From contig NC_008319.1 in NCBI RefSeq assembly GCF_000014585.1, positions 310,001-374,000 on the forward strand: a stretch of DNA of 64,000 nt. The letters run 5' to 3'. This DNA comes from Synechococcus sp. CC9311. GTDB taxonomy: Bacteria; Cyanobacteriota; Cyanobacteriia; PCC-6307; Cyanobiaceae. A program made the translations under genes and the position numbers. The notes under the pieces are model-generated. The model did not search any database. It worked only from the letters and a program-made list of their open reading frames with translations, and was not told where the DNA came from. Positions 53,762 to 62,939 of this stretch are shown here, in pieces (position 1 is the stretch's first letter; the number at the start of each line of letters is the position of its first letter).

Positions 53762-55042
53762 TCATGCTGCTGTCGCAGGACGTCTCGGTGGACAGGCCAT
53801 CAGGGGGCGATGGTGATGACGACGTGGTGTTCTGTTGGGAGCTGCAGTGATGTTTCGTTTTTGGCCTGCTTCGGCAAGGTCTGCTTGTAAGCGTTCGGTG
53901 CAGCACAGCAACCTCGACCAGCTCGGGAGCTGATGGGCGACTGGCGCTGCCATCAAGTCCTCAACTTTGGGACGCAACAAGGTTGCGAAGCTCTGGACAG
54001 CAAGTTCCTCGCTGTGTCGGTTGTAAGGCAGACGATTGATGGCTGAATCCAATCCAAACTGTTGGACACGGTCTTCGCCCACGCGCCGGAACAGCACTTC
54101 AAGCGTTGGGATTTGGTCTGGAGACAACATCCGACCCTCATGCTCCATGAGTCCACGAAGCACCGTGGCAAAAATTTCACCGGCCATGCGTTGCAACCCC
54201 TCAGAGGGAGCATTGCCCAGTGTTTTGTGCTTGTGATCAAACAAGCCGAGATCCACTTGGGCGATGCGCCGAGGAGCCACATGGCGATACACCTCCGAAA
54301 GCAAACCAATTTCGAGTCCCCAGTCGGAAGGAATGCGCAAATTCATGGCCAGATCTCTGGTGAACGCGAACTCGCCGGCTAAGGGGTAGCGAAAGGATTG
54401 GAGATAGCGCAAGTAAGGCATCGGGCCAAAAATCTGCTCCAGGCTGGTGAGGAGTGGACCCACAAACAGGCGTGTTGCCCTTCCATGGAGAGATTGGGTC
54501 TCGAGCGAAAGACGGCTGTAAAACGCTTTCACGTAAGCCACACCGAGAGAGGGATCCAGCAGCGGTCGCAGCATTCTTTGTGGATACGCCGGTGAAAAGG
54601 TGCGGATGTCGGCATCAAAGAGTCCAACGATCTCAGCGTTCCTGCAAGCCACACCAAGTCCTTGCCACACAGCCCAGCCTTTCCCGGGTGGTCCGGTCAC
54701 ATTGAGGCCAAGGGTCTGAAGAGACTGCAGTGATTCGGCAACGGCAGGGCCATTCGTCCAGTGCACGCGCACCGGAAATGGCATGTCAGAGAAGAAAGCT
54801 TCCGCAGCGGCGACGTCGTCGCTGGTCTCTGCAGACAACGCGATCACAAGTTCTTCGAGGCCGCTTAGTTCTGCCAGCACCTCACGGATCAGTCCGAGCG
54901 CAGGTCGGCTGAATTCTTCCATGAGGCACGGGATCAGCAAGGACGTTGGGCGTTGCCTCAGCTGACGACGAAAGTCTGGGAGGTCCAGCTTCCCGAGCCC
55001 ATAATCATGAATTGTGGCGATTAATCCCTGCTGAAAATCCAT
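53762..55042 (-). CDS. gpgS: Glucosyl-3-phosphoglycerate synthase-like glycosyltransferase
   Basis: 426 residues from the ATG beginning MDFQQGLIATIHDYG. Motifs of GT81/GpgS: TSLLIPCLMEEFSRPAL, GPPGKGWAVWQGLG, the metal-binding-type LFDADIRTFSP, and PLAGEFAF followed by WGLEIGLLSEVY. It should make glucosyl-3-phosphoglycerate from an NDP-glucose and 3-phosphoglycerate. The last 30 residues (Arg/His/Pro-rich) are not typical and may be a run-on tail. The start is only 10 bp from the first ATG of the divergent phosphorylase. Both neighbours support the glucosylglycerate role. Confidence 0.85.
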   Translation of the reverse strand: MDFQQGLIATIHDYGLGKLDLPDFRRQLRQRPTSLLIPCLMEEFSRPALGLIREVLAELSGLEELVIALSAETSDDVAAAEAFFSDMPFPVRVHWTNGPAVAESLQSLQTLGLNVTGPPGKGWAVWQGLGVACRNAEIVGLFDADIRTFSPAYPQRMLRPLLDPSLGVAYVKAFYSRLSLETQSLHGRATRLFVGPLLTSLEQIFGPMPYLRYLQSFRYPLAGEFAFTRDLAMNLRIPSDWGLEIGLLSEVYRHVAPRRIAQVDLGLFDHKHKTLGNAPSEGLQRMAGEIFATVLRGLMEHEGRMLSPDQIPTLEVLFRRVGEDRVQQFGLDSAINRLPYNRHSEELAVQSFATLLRPKVEDLMAAPVAHQLPSWSRLLCCTERLQADLAEAGQKRNITAAPNRTPRRHHHRPLMACPPRRPATAA

Positions 55043-55052
55043 GCGGTGATCA

Positions 55053-56873
55053 ATGCGACAACAATTTGCGGAGCTCTGTTCCATACCTGATGCACTTGGC
55101 AAAGGCACGGTGTCGAAGCTGTTAATGGCGCATAAGTGGTTGCCATCGCTTCTGACGGAGCTCTATGAACACCATTCTTCGGAGGATCTCAATCTGCTGT
55201 CGTCGCAATTGCTGCATTCCGAGCGGTCCGCTTCGGAGAAGGCCGTTTCAGAGTCGCTTGATGTTGGGAGTGCGGACGCAACGGCAACGGGTGCGCGTTG
55301 GGATTCCTCGAGTTGTGTGTTGATTGCCTATGCCGATACGGTGAGTGCCGATGATCAGCCTGGGCTCCGTTGTTTGCAGGCCCTTCTTCACGAGCATTTC
55401 AACGGGCTCTCATCCGTCGTGCATGTGTTGCCCTTCTTGCGCTCAACCAGTGATGGCGGTTTTGCCGTTGCCAGTCATGAGGAGATTGAACAACGCTTCG
55501 GTGATTGGAATGACTTGGCCGCGTTAGCTGAAGGCCGCCAGTTGATGGCTGATTTGGTTCTCAATCACATTTCAGCGTCTCACCCTTGGGTGCGAGCTTT
55601 CCTGAAGGGAGAGCAACCTGGAGCGCGATGTGTGTTGGCTGCTGCTCCCAACCCTTGTTGGGACAATGTGGTGCGCCCGCGTAGCTCAGCCCTCTTCACC
55701 ACATTGGCAACAGATCGGGGCCCAGAAACGGTCTGGACCACGTTCGGACCCGATCAAGTTGATGTGAACTGGCGAGAGCCTGAAGTGTTGTTGGGGTTCA
55801 CACGACTGCTCGATCTTTTTTGCAGTTATGGCGTCCAATGGTTGCGCCTTGATGCCGTGGGGTTTGTTTGGAAAGAGCCTTTGAGTGATTGCATCCATCA
55901 GCCTCAGGCTCATCGGTTGGTGGAAGTGTTGCGTCTTCTCTTGGAGTCGCGATGTCCTCAGGGAGTGGTGGTGACAGAGACGAATGTCCCGGAGCAGGAA
56001 AATCTGTCTTATTTGACCACGGGTTCTGAAGCGCACCTCGCCTACAACTTCCCATTACCTCCGCTGGTCCTCGAGGCATGTCTCAGTCGTCGTGCTGATC
56101 TGCTGAACAACTGGCTGGCGCGTTGGCCTCAGCTCCCTCAGGGAACAGGCCTGCTCAATTTCACGGCATGTCATGACGGGATTGGTTTGCGGCCACTCGA
56201 AGGGCTGATGGAATCCGATCGCTTGCTCCAGTTGCTGAAGCAATGCGAGCAGAGGGGTGGCTTGGTGAGTCACCGGCGCTTGGCGGATGGACTGGAGGTT
56301 CCTTATGAAATCAACATCAGCTGGTGGAGTGCCATGGCGGCTCCAGGGAGGGATCCATCACACCATCAACGAGCGCGTTTTTTGTTGACGCAATTGTTGC
56401 TGTTGACGTTGCCCGGTGTGCCTGCGTTTTATTTGCCGGCGTTATTGGCAACTCCTAATGACAATGCCAGATTTCTCCTCAGCGGTCATCGGCGCGATCT
56501 CAACCGTCCTCAATTTCAACTCGACCGCCTAGAGCGTTTGTTGGTTGATGTTGAAAGCGATACCCCTCAGGTGGTGGCGTCACTGCAACAAGCGATGGCT
56601 GTCCGTCGTGGCCAGGCGGCGCTAGATCCCTTCGCCCCAATGAAGGTCCTGAGCGAAGGGCGCTCTGATCTGGTGATTCTGCAGAGGGGTGAAGGGGCAA
56701 GCACTCTGTTTGCGATTCACAATTTCAGTGATGTTCGCCTCAGTTTCCCTTTAAGCACCCTTGCTAACGCCACAGGGTGTGTTTGGCATGACGTTTTGAA
56801 AGGACATTCTCTTGTTGCCGGCCAAACGGCTCTCGATCTTGAGCCGTTTGCTGTGCATTGGTTAACTCGATGA
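55053..56873 (+). CDS. GH13 subfamily 18 sugar phosphorylase, probable glucosylglycerate phosphorylase
   Basis: 606 residues (582 if the ATG at 55125 is used, which leaves room for divergent promoters). GH13_18 motifs: LMADLVLNHISASHPWVRAFL, RLDAVGFVWKE (nucleophile Asp), VVTETNVPEQENLSYL (acid/base Glu) and FTACHDGIG. Often annotated as sucrose phosphorylase, but the setting between gpgS and gpgP favours glucosylglycerate phosphorolysis, an activity known for this subfamily. Its stop overlaps the gpgP start (ATGA). Confidence 0.82.
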   Translation: MRQQFAELCSIPDALGKGTVSKLLMAHKWLPSLLTELYEHHSSEDLNLLSSQLLHSERSASEKAVSESLDVGSADATATGARWDSSSCVLIAYADTVSADDQPGLRCLQALLHEHFNGLSSVVHVLPFLRSTSDGGFAVASHEEIEQRFGDWNDLAALAEGRQLMADLVLNHISASHPWVRAFLKGEQPGARCVLAAAPNPCWDNVVRPRSSALFTTLATDRGPETVWTTFGPDQVDVNWREPEVLLGFTRLLDLFCSYGVQWLRLDAVGFVWKEPLSDCIHQPQAHRLVEVLRLLLESRCPQGVVVTETNVPEQENLSYLTTGSEAHLAYNFPLPPLVLEACLSRRADLLNNWLARWPQLPQGTGLLNFTACHDGIGLRPLEGLMESDRLLQLLKQCEQRGGLVSHRRLADGLEVPYEINISWWSAMAAPGRDPSHHQRARFLLTQLLLLTLPGVPAFYLPALLATPNDNARFLLSGHRRDLNRPQFQLDRLERLLVDVESDTPQVVASLQQAMAVRRGQAALDPFAPMKVLSEGRSDLVILQRGEGASTLFAIHNFSDVRLSFPLSTLANATGCVWHDVLKGHSLVAGQTALDLEPFAVHWLTR

Positions 56874-57679
56874 CTAAAACAGATGCTCTGTGCTCAATCC
56901 CCTGGTGGGTCGTCACCGATCTCGATGGGACCCTGATGGACCATGACTACAACTGGGAGCCGGCACGGGAGGCGATTCGTGGCTTGCAGCTAAAGGGAAT
57001 TCCGGTGATTCCCTGTACGAGCAAAACGGCGGTGGAGGTGAAACATTTCAGGGCTGCCGTTGGGTTGAAGGACCCGTACATCGTTGAAAACGGAGGGGCT
57101 ATTCATGGGGAAACCAGTGATGGTGAGCCATGGGAGCTTGTATTGGGATGCCCTGTCGCTGAGCTTCGCCCGGTTTTGCTTGAGCTTGAGCAGTTGCTCA
57201 GTGAACCATTGCAACCTATTGACGCACTTTCGGATCAAGAAGCTTTCGACCTTCTTGGGTTGCAGGGCAAAGCGCTGCAGTTGGCGTGTACGAGATGTTG
57301 GAGTTTGCCCTTTGTTCCCCCTTCCGCATCAGCGCGGCAACGGTTGCCAGATCTCGCCAACCGGCTTGGATTCGCTGTGGTTCAGGGCAACCGTATGGGT
57401 CACCTACTCGGAGTCGATGTCAGCAAGGGTCGAGCGCTTGAGGTTTTGAAGCAGCGCCGTGCTGGCTCTCCCGTGCGGGTGCTCGCATTGGGTGACTCTC
57501 CCAATGACCAGCCCCTTCTTGATGCTGGTGATCTCTCCGTTGTGGTGCCGGGTGCGAATGGTCCCCATCCGGTCTTTGCTGAAGCCATTGCTCAAGGCCG
57601 CTATCAGTTGGCTTCTGCTTGCCATGCGCAGGGCTGGGCAGAGGCGGTCTTTCAGTACATTCTCAATGAACAGAGCTGA
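56870..57679 (+). CDS. gpgP: Mannosyl/glucosyl-3-phosphoglycerate phosphatase (HAD superfamily)
   Basis: 269 residues. The HAD motif VVTDLDGTL (Asp17, Asp19) is followed by VIPCTSKTAVEVKHF and IVENGGAIHGE, then LGVDVSKGRAL and ALGDSPNDQPLLDAGD, all typical of the MPGP/YedP line. With gpgS it would yield glucosylglycerate, a salt- and nitrogen-stress solute. Its ATG overlaps the phosphorylase stop. Confidence 0.88.
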   Translation: MTKTDALCSIPWWVVTDLDGTLMDHDYNWEPAREAIRGLQLKGIPVIPCTSKTAVEVKHFRAAVGLKDPYIVENGGAIHGETSDGEPWELVLGCPVAELRPVLLELEQLLSEPLQPIDALSDQEAFDLLGLQGKALQLACTRCWSLPFVPPSASARQRLPDLANRLGFAVVQGNRMGHLLGVDVSKGRALEVLKQRRAGSPVRVLALGDSPNDQPLLDAGDLSVVVPGANGPHPVFAEAIAQGRYQLASACHAQGWAEAVFQYILNEQS

Positions 57680-58451: not shown

Positions 58452-59987
58452 TTATTTTTCAGTGTGCCGTAGCTCTTGTGCCTGATCAGGACTGATTCGA
58501 TCCGAGGTCTCGAGCACATGGCTGATGGTGTCAAGTGTGAGTACGGCTTGTAGCTTCACTCCGTGGCTCTGTAAACGCTGTTTGGCGCGGAGATCATGGA
58601 TTCCACCATGGTCTAAAAACACCACCACATCACGCACGTTCAAGCCAGATGATTCGAGCTTGCTGATTCCCTCCATCACGCTGCCGCCGGTAATCAAGAT
58701 GTCATCGACCACTGCCACGGTCTCCCCCTTCTTGAACTCTCCTTCCACCATGCGCCGGGTTCCATGGGCCTTCACTTCTTTCCTTGGGTAAATCAGTGGC
58801 TTATGCAATTGCAATGACAAGCCAGTAGCGGTGGGTAAAGATCCATAAGGAATCCCTGCAATGCGATCGAATCGCAATGGCCTTAGTACCTGGGCATAGC
58901 AATCGAGAACGCGATGAAAAAGAGCGGGATCAGAAATGATCTGACGAAGATCAATGTAATAGTTGAAAATTTCACCGCTTGCTTGCTTAAATTCCCCGAA
59001 TAGAAGGCAGCGAATGTCGTACAAATCGATCACAAGATCCCAAAGGTCTTGATCGATTGGCTTTACACCATCTTCCCTAACCGTCGTGATGGAGTCATCC
59101 TGATTTGATTGATCCGAGTGGGGCCAGATTCTGCATTGTTCCGGATGGATTGCATCGGTATGTGCTCTCTCTTGGAGATGTTGGTCGCGAATTCGATTGA
59201 TTCTTCCTTTGAGCGTTGAGGTCTGTTCATTGATATTGTTTCCATTCAGCAAATTTTGAGGAAGTGGAATCAACAATCCATCTCCCATCTTGTTTAGGCC
59301 GTTTTTGAGCAGACATTGCAAATTCCCTTCCTCACCCCAGAGCGAGCGGAGCATGACAAATCGTTCGGGTGCTGCTTGTCGCACATCAGCCAATATTGCT
59401 GGGTCACTGGTGCCGACTTCAAGCAAAAGTTGTTCGGGTGTCCCCCAGCTCTGGCTTTCTCGCACCACTTTTAAATAGAAAGGATTGTGGTCGTTGGGAT
59501 GATGTTGAAGATCGTGGGCAGCAGGGTTGGAGCTATGGCAATTAATGAAGACTCCTTTCCCTGGGTATAAAAGGAAAGGAGCTGCAATGTCTTGACCAGC
59601 GAAAGGATTGAGTGTTACGGCGTCGGCATGCAGGGATTGGAACAGGTAGGCAGCGATAGCGCTCGAGCTATTGAGATCTCCATGCTTGATATCGATAATG
59701 AGCGGCAGGTCTGGAGGCAGCAGTTCACGCACCTCCAAGAGCAGCTCCACTCCAGCCGAACCCATAGCTTGATAAAAGCCGAGGCTTGGTTTGTAGGCAC
59801 AAACATGATCAGCCGTTTCTTCAATTACGGACTTGCACCATGACCGGGCTTGGCTGAGCAGTGATCTGCCGTTGAGTCCGCGCAGGTCTGCCCAGCTGCG
59901 CAGCATTTCAGGATTAGGATCAAGGCCCGTCACCAGCAGCGACTTCCGACTGCTCATCGCATCGGTGAGTGCCGTGAAAAAGCCCAT
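58452..59987 (-). CDS. pyrFE: Bifunctional orotidine-5'-phosphate decarboxylase / orotate phosphoribosyltransferase
   Basis: 511 residues. Residues about 1-275 form a type 2 OMP decarboxylase (LLVTGLDPNPE; active-site Lys101 in IIDIKHGDLNSS; LNPFAGQDIAAPFL). Residues about 315-505 form orotate phosphoribosyltransferase, with the PRPP site VAVVDDILITGGS and DRIAGIPYGSLPTATGLSL. The PyrF-PyrE order matches the cyanobacterial fusion, not the PyrE-PyrF order of animal UMP synthase. It makes UMP from orotate in one chain; pyrB lies 20 kb away. The linker (about 255-315) is Gln/Asn-rich. Confidence 0.92.
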   Translation of the reverse strand: MGFFTALTDAMSSRKSLLVTGLDPNPEMLRSWADLRGLNGRSLLSQARSWCKSVIEETADHVCAYKPSLGFYQAMGSAGVELLLEVRELLPPDLPLIIDIKHGDLNSSSAIAAYLFQSLHADAVTLNPFAGQDIAAPFLLYPGKGVFINCHSSNPAAHDLQHHPNDHNPFYLKVVRESQSWGTPEQLLLEVGTSDPAILADVRQAAPERFVMLRSLWGEEGNLQCLLKNGLNKMGDGLLIPLPQNLLNGNNINEQTSTLKGRINRIRDQHLQERAHTDAIHPEQCRIWPHSDQSNQDDSITTVREDGVKPIDQDLWDLVIDLYDIRCLLFGEFKQASGEIFNYYIDLRQIISDPALFHRVLDCYAQVLRPLRFDRIAGIPYGSLPTATGLSLQLHKPLIYPRKEVKAHGTRRMVEGEFKKGETVAVVDDILITGGSVMEGISKLESSGLNVRDVVVFLDHGGIHDLRAKQRLQSHGVKLQAVLTLDTISHVLETSDRISPDQAQELRHTEK

Positions 59988-60192: not shown

Positions 60193-61704
60193 TTAAGTCT
60201 TGCTCATGAAGGTGGATGATTTGATGCCGCGTTGCATCACCACTAGCCTGGACAATAAGCATCCGAGAGTCGTGAATAGTACGGCAAGATTCATTGGCAA
60301 TGTATGCAAATTGTTGGAATTTGCGTACATTGAGATGAATATCGATAGCATTAATCCCCAGAAGAACGAGAGTTCGGCGTAGAAGTCGTGCCGAAGGGTC
60401 GGATGGCTTGCATCGGCTCGAATTACATCACGAAGAATGGCTCCGCCTGCTCCAGTCATGGCGCTGAAGATTGGCCCCCAGAGGAGCAAGGGATTGCATT
60501 TTTCCTCAACGGCCACGATGACTCCAACCACGGTGAAAGCTGATAAGCCGAGGGCATCCAAAACTTGAACGGCTTTTTCTCCAAAATGAAATTTGCTTAG
60601 CTGGCTTGGCAAACCGCGTAGGTTCGTAAGCCTTGCTATCAAGTGACTGATCAGCACGAGTGCAATCACAATCATCATGTTGTGAGTGGATTGAAGGACT
60701 GCTGGTTGATCTCGATTTGCAATCAAATCCCTGATGATGCCGCCACCAAAAGCGGGAAGACTTGCAAGCACGAGTGCGCCAAATAGGCTGAATCGATCAC
60801 GTCGCGCCAGCAAAATCCCGGAAAAAGCAAATGCTGCCGTACCAATCGTTTCTAGGATGAAAAACCATGGCTGGCCTGCAGTCATGGCCAATAAGGAAGG
60901 GAAGAGATAATCGCGAACGATTTGGTTGTAACGTCCATCGCCTTTAAGCTTTTGCATCGCTTGATCAAATGCGGAAACGAGCGCTGGTGATGTGGTGCGA
61001 CGACTGAAAAGGGCGACAATTGGACCTGAGAAGATGTGATCTTTGCCGGCAATTAGATCTCGACTGAGAGATTCTTCCCAAATCAAAGTGCTCCCCACGA
61101 GGCGATCGATAGCGACTAAATCAACCTTCCCGTTCACCAGATTCTGTAGATTTTCGATGTCTGTTTTGACTGATGTCCATCGATTTTGATTGGATTGATC
61201 CTTGAGGAATCTATCGATGGCATCTCCGTAGTAATACCCAGATACAACACCTAGCCGAAGCTTGCTTGAAGGGAATGATTGCTTAAAGACATCAGGCCGA
61301 AGCATTGCGATCGCGCTCGATTCCGATCGTCGACTGATCAAAATGATGTCTTCGTTTCGATAAGGGGCTGAAAAGTAGGCATAGCGCTCACGCTCTGGCG
61401 TGATAAAAGCTCCTCCAGCTACATCTCGCATGCCCTCACTGATTTCTTGTTGATGAACCTCCCAGTCCACTTGAGGTAGTTTTAGTGTTAGTCCCAATTC
61501 CTCCTCAAACACCTCTTTCAATAACTGAACATCTAAGCCAGTAAGTTGGAGTCGGTCATTACTATTCTTTTGAAGATATTGATAGGGCTTCCAGGGGTAC
61601 CAACCTCCCTGGATGACATTTAGTTCCGAGGCAGAGACAGAGGTCGTTACGCTCATGACCAGAACCATTGACACCAATGCGATGGCTAATGTCTTGAGCT
61701 TCAC
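60193..61704 (-). CDS. Periplasmic solute-binding protein fused to a TRIC/UPF0126 membrane domain
   Basis: 503 residues. A signal peptide ends near residue 26 (VSASE). Residues about 28-268 are a type 3 solute-binding fold, as in amino-acid ABC transport (LTGLDVQLLKEVFEEELGLT, GGAFITPERERYAYFSAPY, KLRLGVVSGYYYG, VDLVAIDR). Residues about 277-490 form six to seven helices in two matching halves, each with the G-G-x-I-x-R-D motif (GGGIIRD 320-326; GGAILRD 420-426), as in UPF0126/YicG glycine transporters of the TRIC superfamily. A ligand-gated channel or transporter is inferred. It lies 88 bp after the psbA terminator on the same strand. Confidence 0.82.
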   Translation of the reverse strand: MKLKTLAIALVSMVLVMSVTTSVSASELNVIQGGWYPWKPYQYLQKNSNDRLQLTGLDVQLLKEVFEEELGLTLKLPQVDWEVHQQEISEGMRDVAGGAFITPERERYAYFSAPYRNEDIILISRRSESSAIAMLRPDVFKQSFPSSKLRLGVVSGYYYGDAIDRFLKDQSNQNRWTSVKTDIENLQNLVNGKVDLVAIDRLVGSTLIWEESLSRDLIAGKDHIFSGPIVALFSRRTTSPALVSAFDQAMQKLKGDGRYNQIVRDYLFPSLLAMTAGQPWFFILETIGTAAFAFSGILLARRDRFSLFGALVLASLPAFGGGIIRDLIANRDQPAVLQSTHNMMIVIALVLISHLIARLTNLRGLPSQLSKFHFGEKAVQVLDALGLSAFTVVGVIVAVEEKCNPLLLWGPIFSAMTGAGGAILRDVIRADASHPTLRHDFYAELSFFWGLMLSIFISMYANSNNLHTLPMNLAVLFTTLGCLLSRLVVMQRGIKSSTFMSKT

Positions 61705-61792: not shown

Positions 61793-61822
61793 AAAAAGCC
61801 CCCACCAATCGGCGGGGGCTTT
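61793..61822 (-). terminator. Rho-independent terminator of psbA
   Basis: On the minus strand AAAGCCCCC and GGGGGCTTT form a 9-bp stem around a 10-base loop and continue into TTTTTGTT, 38 bases after the psbA stop. Confidence 0.93.
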
Positions 61823-61859: not shown

Positions 61860-62939
61860 TCAACCGATTGCAGGTGCCTGAAGAGCCACAGGTGTGGACT
61901 CAGCAGCTGCCAGGTCGAGAGGGAAGTTATGAGCGTTGCGCTCGTGCATCACTTCCATGCCGAGACCGGCACGGTTCAACACGTCGGCCCAGGTGTTCAG
62001 GACACGGCCCTGACCATCAAGGATGGACTGGTTGAAGTTGAAGCCGTTCAGGTTGAAGGCCATGGTTGACACGCCAAGGGCGGTGAACCAGATGCCGACA
62101 ACAGGCCAGGCTGCAAGGAAGAAGTGAAGGCTACGGCTGTTGTTGAAGGAGGCGTATTGGAAGATCAGGCGACCGAAGTAGCCGTGAGCAGCCACGATGT
62201 TGTACGTCTCTTCTTCTTGGCCGAACTTGTAGCCATAGTTCTGGGACTCGGTCTCGGTTGTTTCACGAACCAAGGAGGAGGTCACCAATGAACCGTGCAT
62301 GGCGGAGAACAGTGAACCACCGAACACACCAGCAACTCCCAGCATGTGGAAGGGGTGCATCAAGATGTTGTGCTCAGCCTGGAACACCAACATGTAGTTG
62401 AAGGTTCCAGAGATGCCCAAAGGCATGGCGTCAGAGAACGAACCCTGACCGAAGGGGTAAACCAGGAACACTGCAGATGCAGCAGCAACAGGTGCGCTGT
62501 ATGCAACACAGATCCAAGGGCGCATGCCCAAGCGGTAGGAAAGTTCCCACTCACGTCCCATATAGGCGTAGATGCCGATCAGGAAGTGGAACACAACCAG
62601 TTGGAAAGGACCGCCGTTGTAGAGCCACTCGTCGAGTGAGGCAGCTTCCCAGATTGGGTAGAAGTGCAAGCCGATGGCGTTGCTGGAAGGAACAACAGCA
62701 CCAGAAATGATGTTGTTGCCATACATCAGTGAACCTGCAACAGGCTCGCGGATGCCGTCGATATCAACCGGAGGTGCGGCGATGAAAGCGACGATGAAGC
62801 AGGTGGTAGCGGCAAGCAGTGTGGGGATCATCAACACACCGAACCAACCGACATACAGACGGTTGTTCGTGGAGGTGACCCAATCACAGAACTGCTGCCA
62901 ACCGTTAGCGCCGGAGCGCTGCTGGATGGTGGTAGTCAT
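61860..62939 (-). CDS. psbA: Photosystem II D1 protein (D1:2-type, Glu130)
   Basis: 359 residues. D1 binds P680, pheophytin, QB and the Mn cluster. Visible: Tyr161, Asp170, His190 and His198 in the expected places. Residue 130 is Glu ([10 protein letters not shown]), the high-light D1:2 form; the low-light D1:1 form has Gln. The C-terminal 15-residue extension [15 protein letters not shown] should be removed after Ala344. Marine Synechococcus carry several psbA copies; only one is in this window. A 9-bp-stem terminator follows. Confidence 0.98.

Follow-up and report, generated by a model that had tools for sequence, protein, structure and literature searches.

The cargo of the prokaryotic TRIC/UPF0126 membrane proteins is disputed: structures and bilayer recordings point to K+, whereas mutant fitness points to glycine. 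The solved prokaryotic TRIC proteins (5wuc-5wuf, 5h35, 5h36 and 5wtr) are chains of 212-249 residues without a binding domain, which consist of two repeats and contain glycine kinks and RD motifs. In structural studies, TRIC proteins from prokaryotes conduct in bilayers bathed in KCl and possess a narrow, generally hydrophobic pore (PMC5477506) in which K+ is held (PMC5401562), while the cytoplasmic-side closure of SaTRIC is provided by D99, R139, D140 and Y155 (PMC5477506). A review lists stand-alone UPF0126 genes as important for glycine use in 11 bacteria (PMC12173739).

Solute-binding proteins (SBPs) of family 3, such as the amino-acid binding proteins GlnBP, AncQR and ArtJ, serve ABC permeases, and TRAP and TTT systems combine SBPs of the DctP, TAXI or TctC type with membrane families of their own. 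The closest published precedent for the arrangement described here is TAXI-GltS, reported in 2025, in which an SBP is coupled, and in some genomes fused, to an ATP-independent membrane protein outside the TRAP and TTT families; that paper presents the reliance of such secondary transporters on SBPs as an emerging theme (PMC12344293). In GluR0, which comes from a cyanobacterium, and in related prokaryotic glutamate receptors, a family-3-like binding core is combined with a membrane pore. The pore of GluR0 is a P-loop K+ channel that is inserted within the binding core. In 2011, Silverio and Saier reportedly noted that some TRIC homologues of prokaryotes have additional domains fused to their N- or C-terminus. 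The titles and abstract openings of the literature matches listed contain no published description of an SBP-TRIC fusion, and the available portions of PMC2950845, PMC7016017 and PMC8276074 do not mention one. The words "fused" and "fusion" do not occur in the accessible text of PMC8786288, which reviews the binding proteins of picocyanobacteria, nor does UPF0126 in that of the TAXI-GltS paper (PMC12344293).

Such a fusion is encoded in Synechococcus sp. CC9311, within the 64,000-nucleotide stretch of DNA analysed here (the window). The gene, at 60193-61704 on the minus strand, starts with GTG and encodes a protein of 503 amino acids. Pfam matches this frame to SBP_bac_3 (8e-19, residues 38-267) and, in two stretches, to Gly_transporter (UPF0126/TRIC, PF03458; 4e-29), both above the curated cut-offs, and lists no further family at E<=1. 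Unlike TRAP and TTT systems, the fusion thus has no DctP, TAXI or TctC type domain. In NCBIfam, nothing exceeded a cut-off; among the partial matches, the C-terminal part fitted PRK10578 best, and the N-terminal part fitted amino-acid binding proteins. A preliminary description of this DNA, made from its letters, had read the protein as a binding domain joined to a two-half UPF0126 membrane domain. Both profiles and the folds described below agree with this reading, and the alternative that the C-terminal half belongs to another family fails, because other Pfam families score nothing there.

Residues 1-25 (61630-61704, minus strand as for all parts of the gene) form a putative cleavable signal peptide, which ends with V-S-A at residues 23-25 and of which residues 2-17 are helical in the model; this assignment was made by eye. 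It is followed by the family-3 solute-binding domain (residues 28-268; 60901-61623), a short linker (residues 269-278; 60871-60900) and a seven-helix TRIC domain (residues 279-492; 60229-60870). The two G-G-x-I-x-R-D motifs already noticed in the preliminary description are indeed present, as GGGIIRD in the first half (residues 320-326; 60727-60747) and GGAILRD in the second (residues 420-426; 60427-60447). Both halves therefore contain the glycine kink and RD, with GGA as the second glycine triplet.

An AlphaFold model calculated from ten relatives (mean pLDDT 76.6, pTM 0.66) predicts a two-lobe alpha/beta domain that is followed by seven long helices (residues 279-302, 307-329, 339-362, 374-400, 406-428, 439-462 and 468-492). 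When compared with solved structures, the first part of the model matches a glutamine-binding protein (Z 24.2; 219 residues aligned with an rmsd of 2.2) and the second part matches the TRIC entries 5h35, 5wuf, 5wud, 5wuc and 5h36 (Z 22.1-22.9 over 192-195 residues). TRIC entries were absent from the 50 Foldseek rows listed, and the TRIC half was matched in this second structure comparison. The structure prediction that the preliminary description had proposed, run as a single chain, thus yields a glutamine-binding-protein fold plus a seven-helix TRIC fold. A profile search against solved structures agrees with both fold assignments, and most of the best solved relatives of the binding domain are proteins that bind amino acids for uptake systems. 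The presumed inside loops L1, L3 and L5 contain three, two and two Lys and Arg residues (flanks included) and the C-terminus two, compared with one, one and zero in the outside loops; since the inside loops hold more, an outside location of the N-terminus is mildly favoured, although L5 also contains three acidic residues.

Fusions of this architecture (SBP_bac_3 plus TRIC, type A) are present in ten of 400 genomes sampled from the window's family, the Cyanobiaceae (G000, G221, G418, G429, G478, G487, G509, G329, G355 and G421), whereas a UPF0126 match was found in 24. A second architecture, in which an NMT1/THI5-type domain is joined to TRIC (type B), occurs in six family genomes (G288, G355, G429, G466, G469 and G578), and two (G355 and G429) contain both types; these classes were assigned by Pfam for five of the ten type-A and four of the six type-B proteins, and by alignment for the rest. 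Within the window's genus, each of the 11 UPF0126 copies, found in ten genomes, is a fusion (seven type A, four type B), and another genome of this genus contains the same two-domain frame, 91% identical to the window protein. A whole-phylum sample of 292 genomes gave a fused match only in G000, G221 and G288, the last one a type B detected through its TRIC part.

Type A also occurs outside the cyanobacteria. A scan of one genome per species with the peptide patterns [IL][RQ]GGWYPW and [FY]TVVGVIVA retrieved ten loci, five of them cyanobacterial (contigs or proteins identical to those of G429, G418, G355, G421 and G329). The other five belong to a member of the Burkholderiaceae, another proteobacterium, Reyranella, another alphaproteobacterium and a Verrucomicrobiota metagenome-assembled genome, and their proteins are 33-44% identical to the window protein. 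In Pseudomonadota, where fusions were counted solely by profile search at E<=1e-40, two of 299 genomes matched over the full length (including the centre genome G657) and two more through the SBP part only. At the same threshold, the phylum of G658 yielded a match in one of 115 genomes (G658 itself), the family of G656 in five of 151, among them L133 with internal stops, and the family of G657 in four of 61, of which one has a degenerate SBP; G657 and G798 are also part of the Pseudomonadota sample. Type A is rare yet spread across several lineages, a distribution compatible with horizontal transfer or with loss on several occasions. The earlier suggestion that the window protein is one of few such fusions is correct with respect to rarity, but the protein belongs to a family that extends across several lineages and is accompanied by the NMT1/THI5 type. 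That two genes were artificially joined by sequencing, assembly or annotation, a possibility raised in the preliminary description, has a negligible chance and is already refuted: the type-A-like parts of L035 (in G360) sit in different frames and the match in L133 is interrupted by stops, but single intact frames are maintained in many genomes of several lineages. The fusion is genuine and not an assembly artefact.

The type-A binding domain has the fold of the family-3 amino-acid binding proteins and shares an aligned Arg and Asp with them; in contrast to these proteins, which serve an ABC permease, it is fused to TRIC. Seven pocket residues (W35, W38, W81, G98, R105, G156 and D200) are identical in all 18 intact type-A proteins aligned; for L042-L051, the conservation of GGWYPW is partly forced by the choice of the search pattern, but the rows found by profile keep W35 and W38, too. 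In a separate alignment, a further type-A protein (L019) also retains W35, W38, W81, R105 and D200. R105 and D200 align with Arg and Asp of the ancestral Gln/Arg-binding protein AncQR (4zv1), where this pair presumably holds the alpha-carboxylate and the alpha-amino group of the ligand. As judged from these residues, the pocket appears to carry an alpha-amino-acid signature only. W35 presumably occupies a position at which GlnBP has a polar pocket residue (hand alignment), and the three tryptophans would suit a small ligand. Glycine, which the preliminary description had put forward, is a candidate ligand whose naming goes back to the way in which stand-alone UPF0126 proteins are annotated.

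The pocket residues vary among other relatives. L077 (1513-2361) and L078 (1351-2193) encode free-standing relatives of the type-A binding domain, possibly lipoproteins as judged by eye, which keep W38, W81, R105 and D200 and contain Phe at position 35; when the short stretches around them were inspected by eye, none of the genes was evidently a permease gene. The SBP frame of L035 has lost R105 and D200.

We hold with moderate confidence that type A is a single-chain, binding-protein-fed importer that operates without an ATPase and in which the SBP sets the substrate. The signal peptide would export the N-terminal Venus-flytrap domain to the periplasm, where it would close on an alpha-amino acid via the conserved Arg105 and Asp200. 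The short linker of fixed length would keep the SBP above the extracellular mouth of TRIC, so that the ligand could be unloaded straight into the protein's own pore. The TRIC domain, probably a trimer, would then move the ligand inward, either down its gradient or together with an ion. Of this picture, the computational analysis demonstrates that both domains are present, that pocket and linker are conserved, and that a sister architecture exists in which the binding domain is of the NMT1/THI5 type and the gene overlaps thiO. Import is favoured because the TRIC domains joined to two binding families of the uptake type fall on the same side of the tree, and because one of the two fusions overlaps a biosynthetic gene. 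The uptake-type relatives of both SBPs, the thiO overlap, the conserved pocket, the published role of UPF0126 in glycine use and the TAXI-GltS precedent count for import, although TAXI-GltS involves another SBP family and another membrane family. The K+ conduction and the narrow, generally hydrophobic TRIC pore of the structural studies count against it.

Alternatively, the fusion might be a mere tether without coupling: the SBP would act as a sensor or scavenger that holds its ligand at the membrane, while TRIC works independently as in the stand-alone proteins. This explanation is improbable, because pocket and linker length are constant in the 18 intact type-A proteins across phyla; residues 258-300 are gap-free in the aligned type-A proteins of several phyla, and the linker contains no indels. 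Nonetheless, a degenerate binding domain in L135 and five SBP-less relatives of type B suggest that TRIC may not need its SBP. The type-A-like protein of L135 (1501-3039) has lost the pocket residues, including R105 and D200, and has no SBP_bac_3 match, but it still matches Gly_transporter. That L135 keeps the fusion despite its degenerate pocket also counts against import.

The main rival of import is a ligand-gated cation channel on the TRIC fold that resembles GluR0, in which SBP closure pulls TM1 via the linker and opens a K+ pathway. We consider gating rather unlikely; it gains its rank because TRIC conducts K+ (PMC5477506, PMC5401562) and because GluR0, described as a K+ channel in a cyanobacterium (PMC13099474), demonstrates the principle. 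The modelled binding domain also matches the ligand-binding cores of GluR0 (2pyy, Z 22.6; 1ii5, Z 21.9), but different from GluR0, the SBP of the fusion is contiguous and is followed by seven TRIC helices, and no P-loop pore is placed inside the binding core. The linker without indels would equally serve gating. Furthermore, the counterparts of the SaTRIC lock (D383, R425, D426 and Y442) are kept in 16/16 type-A proteins. At TM3 position 342, which faces the SBP side and corresponds to Y70 of the extracellular-side network of SaTRIC, the tyrosine found in solved TRIC proteins is mostly missing from type A: it is present in only 2/16 type-A proteins, compared with 6/6 type-B proteins, 5/5 SBP-less relatives and 23/31 other stand-alone proteins. 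These counts come from related sequences and hence do not represent independent events. The rest of this network barely differs, which argues against gating: R325 and D326 never vary, and 12/16 type-A and 26/31 other proteins retain the TM1 acid. In type B, it is the cytoplasmic lock that deviates, with Leu at the position of the TM5 arginine R425 in 6/6 proteins, which likewise counts against gating; the five SBP-less relatives have Met there. Type A has thus changed at one SBP-facing residue, and type B in the cytoplasmic lock. Gating by itself also leaves the NMT1/THI5 type, its thiO overlap and the uptake-type SBP relatives unexplained. The "ligand-gated or ligand-fed" function without ATP proposed in the preliminary description remains a reasonable pair of hypotheses.

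Type B bears directly on the import reading. In L005, the N-terminal part matches NMT1/THI5-like proteins (1.4e-30) and the C-terminal part Gly_transporter (1.6e-31) in Pfam. At E values of 5e-10 to 2e-7, the solved relatives of the type-B SBP are THI13 and THI5, the binding protein of an ABC system and a protein that binds formylaminopyrimidine. If the bound domain sets the substrate, the best reading is a pyrimidine-like substrate. A type-B AlphaFold model based on six rows was poor (pLDDT 60) and was left out of all conclusions. thiO was detected in 29 of 31 genomes of the window's genus, and in four of these 29, type B is located between gatB and thiO, where in each case its TGA overlaps the in-frame ATG of thiO as ATGA. 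The encoded protein scores 255.1 against a cut-off of 250.8 for the ThiO enzyme (TIGR02352), a biosynthetic glycine oxidase of thiamine synthesis. In another genus, thiO of L060 lies on the same strand, about 1.4 kb beyond type B, while neither thiO nor gatB is found inside the 17 kb around the type B of L062, also from another genus. However, gatB adjoins thiO in 20 of the 25 genus loci that lack type B, which indicates that this gene order is older than the arrival of type B, and the thiO link may only reflect its insertion site; this possibility counts against import.

Relatives of the type-B SBP are also common apart from TRIC. At 1e-25, the type-B profile matched 60 of 299 Pseudomonadota genomes, four of them via TRIC alone and the rest via the SBP part, and no single match among those listed for these genomes spans both parts. 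Some of these SBP relatives sit in long multi-domain frames. In the one operon tested by Pfam, a free-standing relative (L144) has as neighbours the genes for the ATPase of an ABC system and for two permeases of the BPD_transp_1 family. Another relative (L146) has an amidohydrolase nearby.

The descent of the TRIC domains was analysed in a tree of 59 sequences (16 type A, L035, six type B, five SBP-less family proteins and 31 other stand-alone proteins). Type A, L035, type B and the five SBP-less proteins share one side of a branch (99/97), with the 31 other stand-alone proteins on the opposite side. The tree program warned of long branches meeting; when four long rows were dropped, types A and B each still occupied one side of a branch. 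If the substrate is set by the SBP, different SBP families N-terminal to TRIC on one tree side, as found here, are to be expected. That both fusions share one origin, with A, L035 and B forming a clade without the five SBP-less proteins, was not rejected (p-AU 0.19), and we do not claim two independent fusions, because this value allows a swap of the binding domain, its loss in the five proteins, or two fusions. The SBP-less proteins (L014, L016, L023, L033 and L034) stand closest to type B. In four of them, the TRIC match begins at residue 48-70, leaving an N-terminal extension that is possibly a relic of a lost binding domain; an SBP of either kind was not found within their loci of about 3.2 kb.

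Beyond type A itself, the two architectures may tentatively be seen as a new class of binding-protein-dependent, ATP-independent importers on the TRIC fold, whose substrate is switched by swapping the fused SBP (an amino acid in type A, a thiamine-pyrimidine-like compound in type B). If true, the "K+ channel" and "glycine transporter" views would be reconciled by TRIC being a general small-solute pore. A TRIC domain with its own ligand-binding domain, available in two versions, makes the question of cargo versus gating directly testable. If the ligand is carried, TRIC joins TRAP, TTT and TAXI-GltS as a host of binding proteins; if it opens the pore, a ligand-gated channel on the TRIC fold results. 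To our knowledge, the TRIC fold is not otherwise used for ligand-gated channels. The fusion thus suggests a little-known route to import nutrients, or to open a pore, without ATP, and it could give some marine Synechococcus access to organic nitrogen, which is scarce, or to precursors of vitamins.

ABC permease and ATPase genes are absent beside the window fusion, which is flanked by psbA and a PyrF-PyrE-like frame. The upstream neighbour psbA (61860-62939, minus strand; Photo_RC 4e-89) is 155 bp away, and a hairpin with a T-run in between (61795-61822, minus strand), recognised by eye, is the probable psbA terminator; a promoter and terminator scan performed at chance level and did not list this hairpin. 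The position beside psbA, noted in the preliminary description, recurs: among the seven cyanobacterial type-A loci in which the upstream side can be read, psbA lies upstream on the same strand in five (the window, L066, L067, L070 and L074; genomes G000, G221, G487, G509 and G355, of which G355 belongs to another genus and has its psbA cut by the contig end). A different gene precedes type A in G329, and psbA is about 4 kb off in G478. The contig ends just upstream of type A in G418, G429 and G421, and the remnants in G429 and G421 contain a similar GC-rich hairpin with a T-run. The five non-cyanobacterial type-A loci gave no psbA match. This link across two genera could be caused by read-through expression, recombination at repeated psbA genes or common descent, and it leaves the balance between import and gating as it was.

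Apart from psbA among cyanobacteria, the stretches compared contain no metabolic neighbour common to type-A loci, which counts against import. So does the result of a riboswitch scan at gathering thresholds (L042, L047-L051, L060-L066, L070, L071, L074 and the window), in which no riboswitch adjoined a fusion; the matches were confined to tRNAs, psbA/psbNH leaders and a single SAM-I/IV element, which in L047 is separated from the fusion by about 4 kb. Also about 4 kb from this Burkholderiaceae fusion (G656:C30), a stand-alone UPF0126 gene is located on the same contig, and a third copy is present on another contig.

The downstream neighbours of type A vary. In the window, a frame outside the system (58452-59987, minus strand) combines OMP decarboxylase-like and phosphoribosyltransferase domains, with Pfam scores barely over the cut-off, and such a PyrF-PyrE-like gene is the neighbour in three loci, with relatives in L066, L067 and L071 and other genes elsewhere. 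Elsewhere in the window, 53762-57679 may represent a compatible-solute cluster, comprising an alpha-amylase/amylosucrase-like enzyme, a HAD-type phosphatase and a 448-amino-acid frame without Pfam match at 1e-4, for which a glycosyltransferase is our guess.
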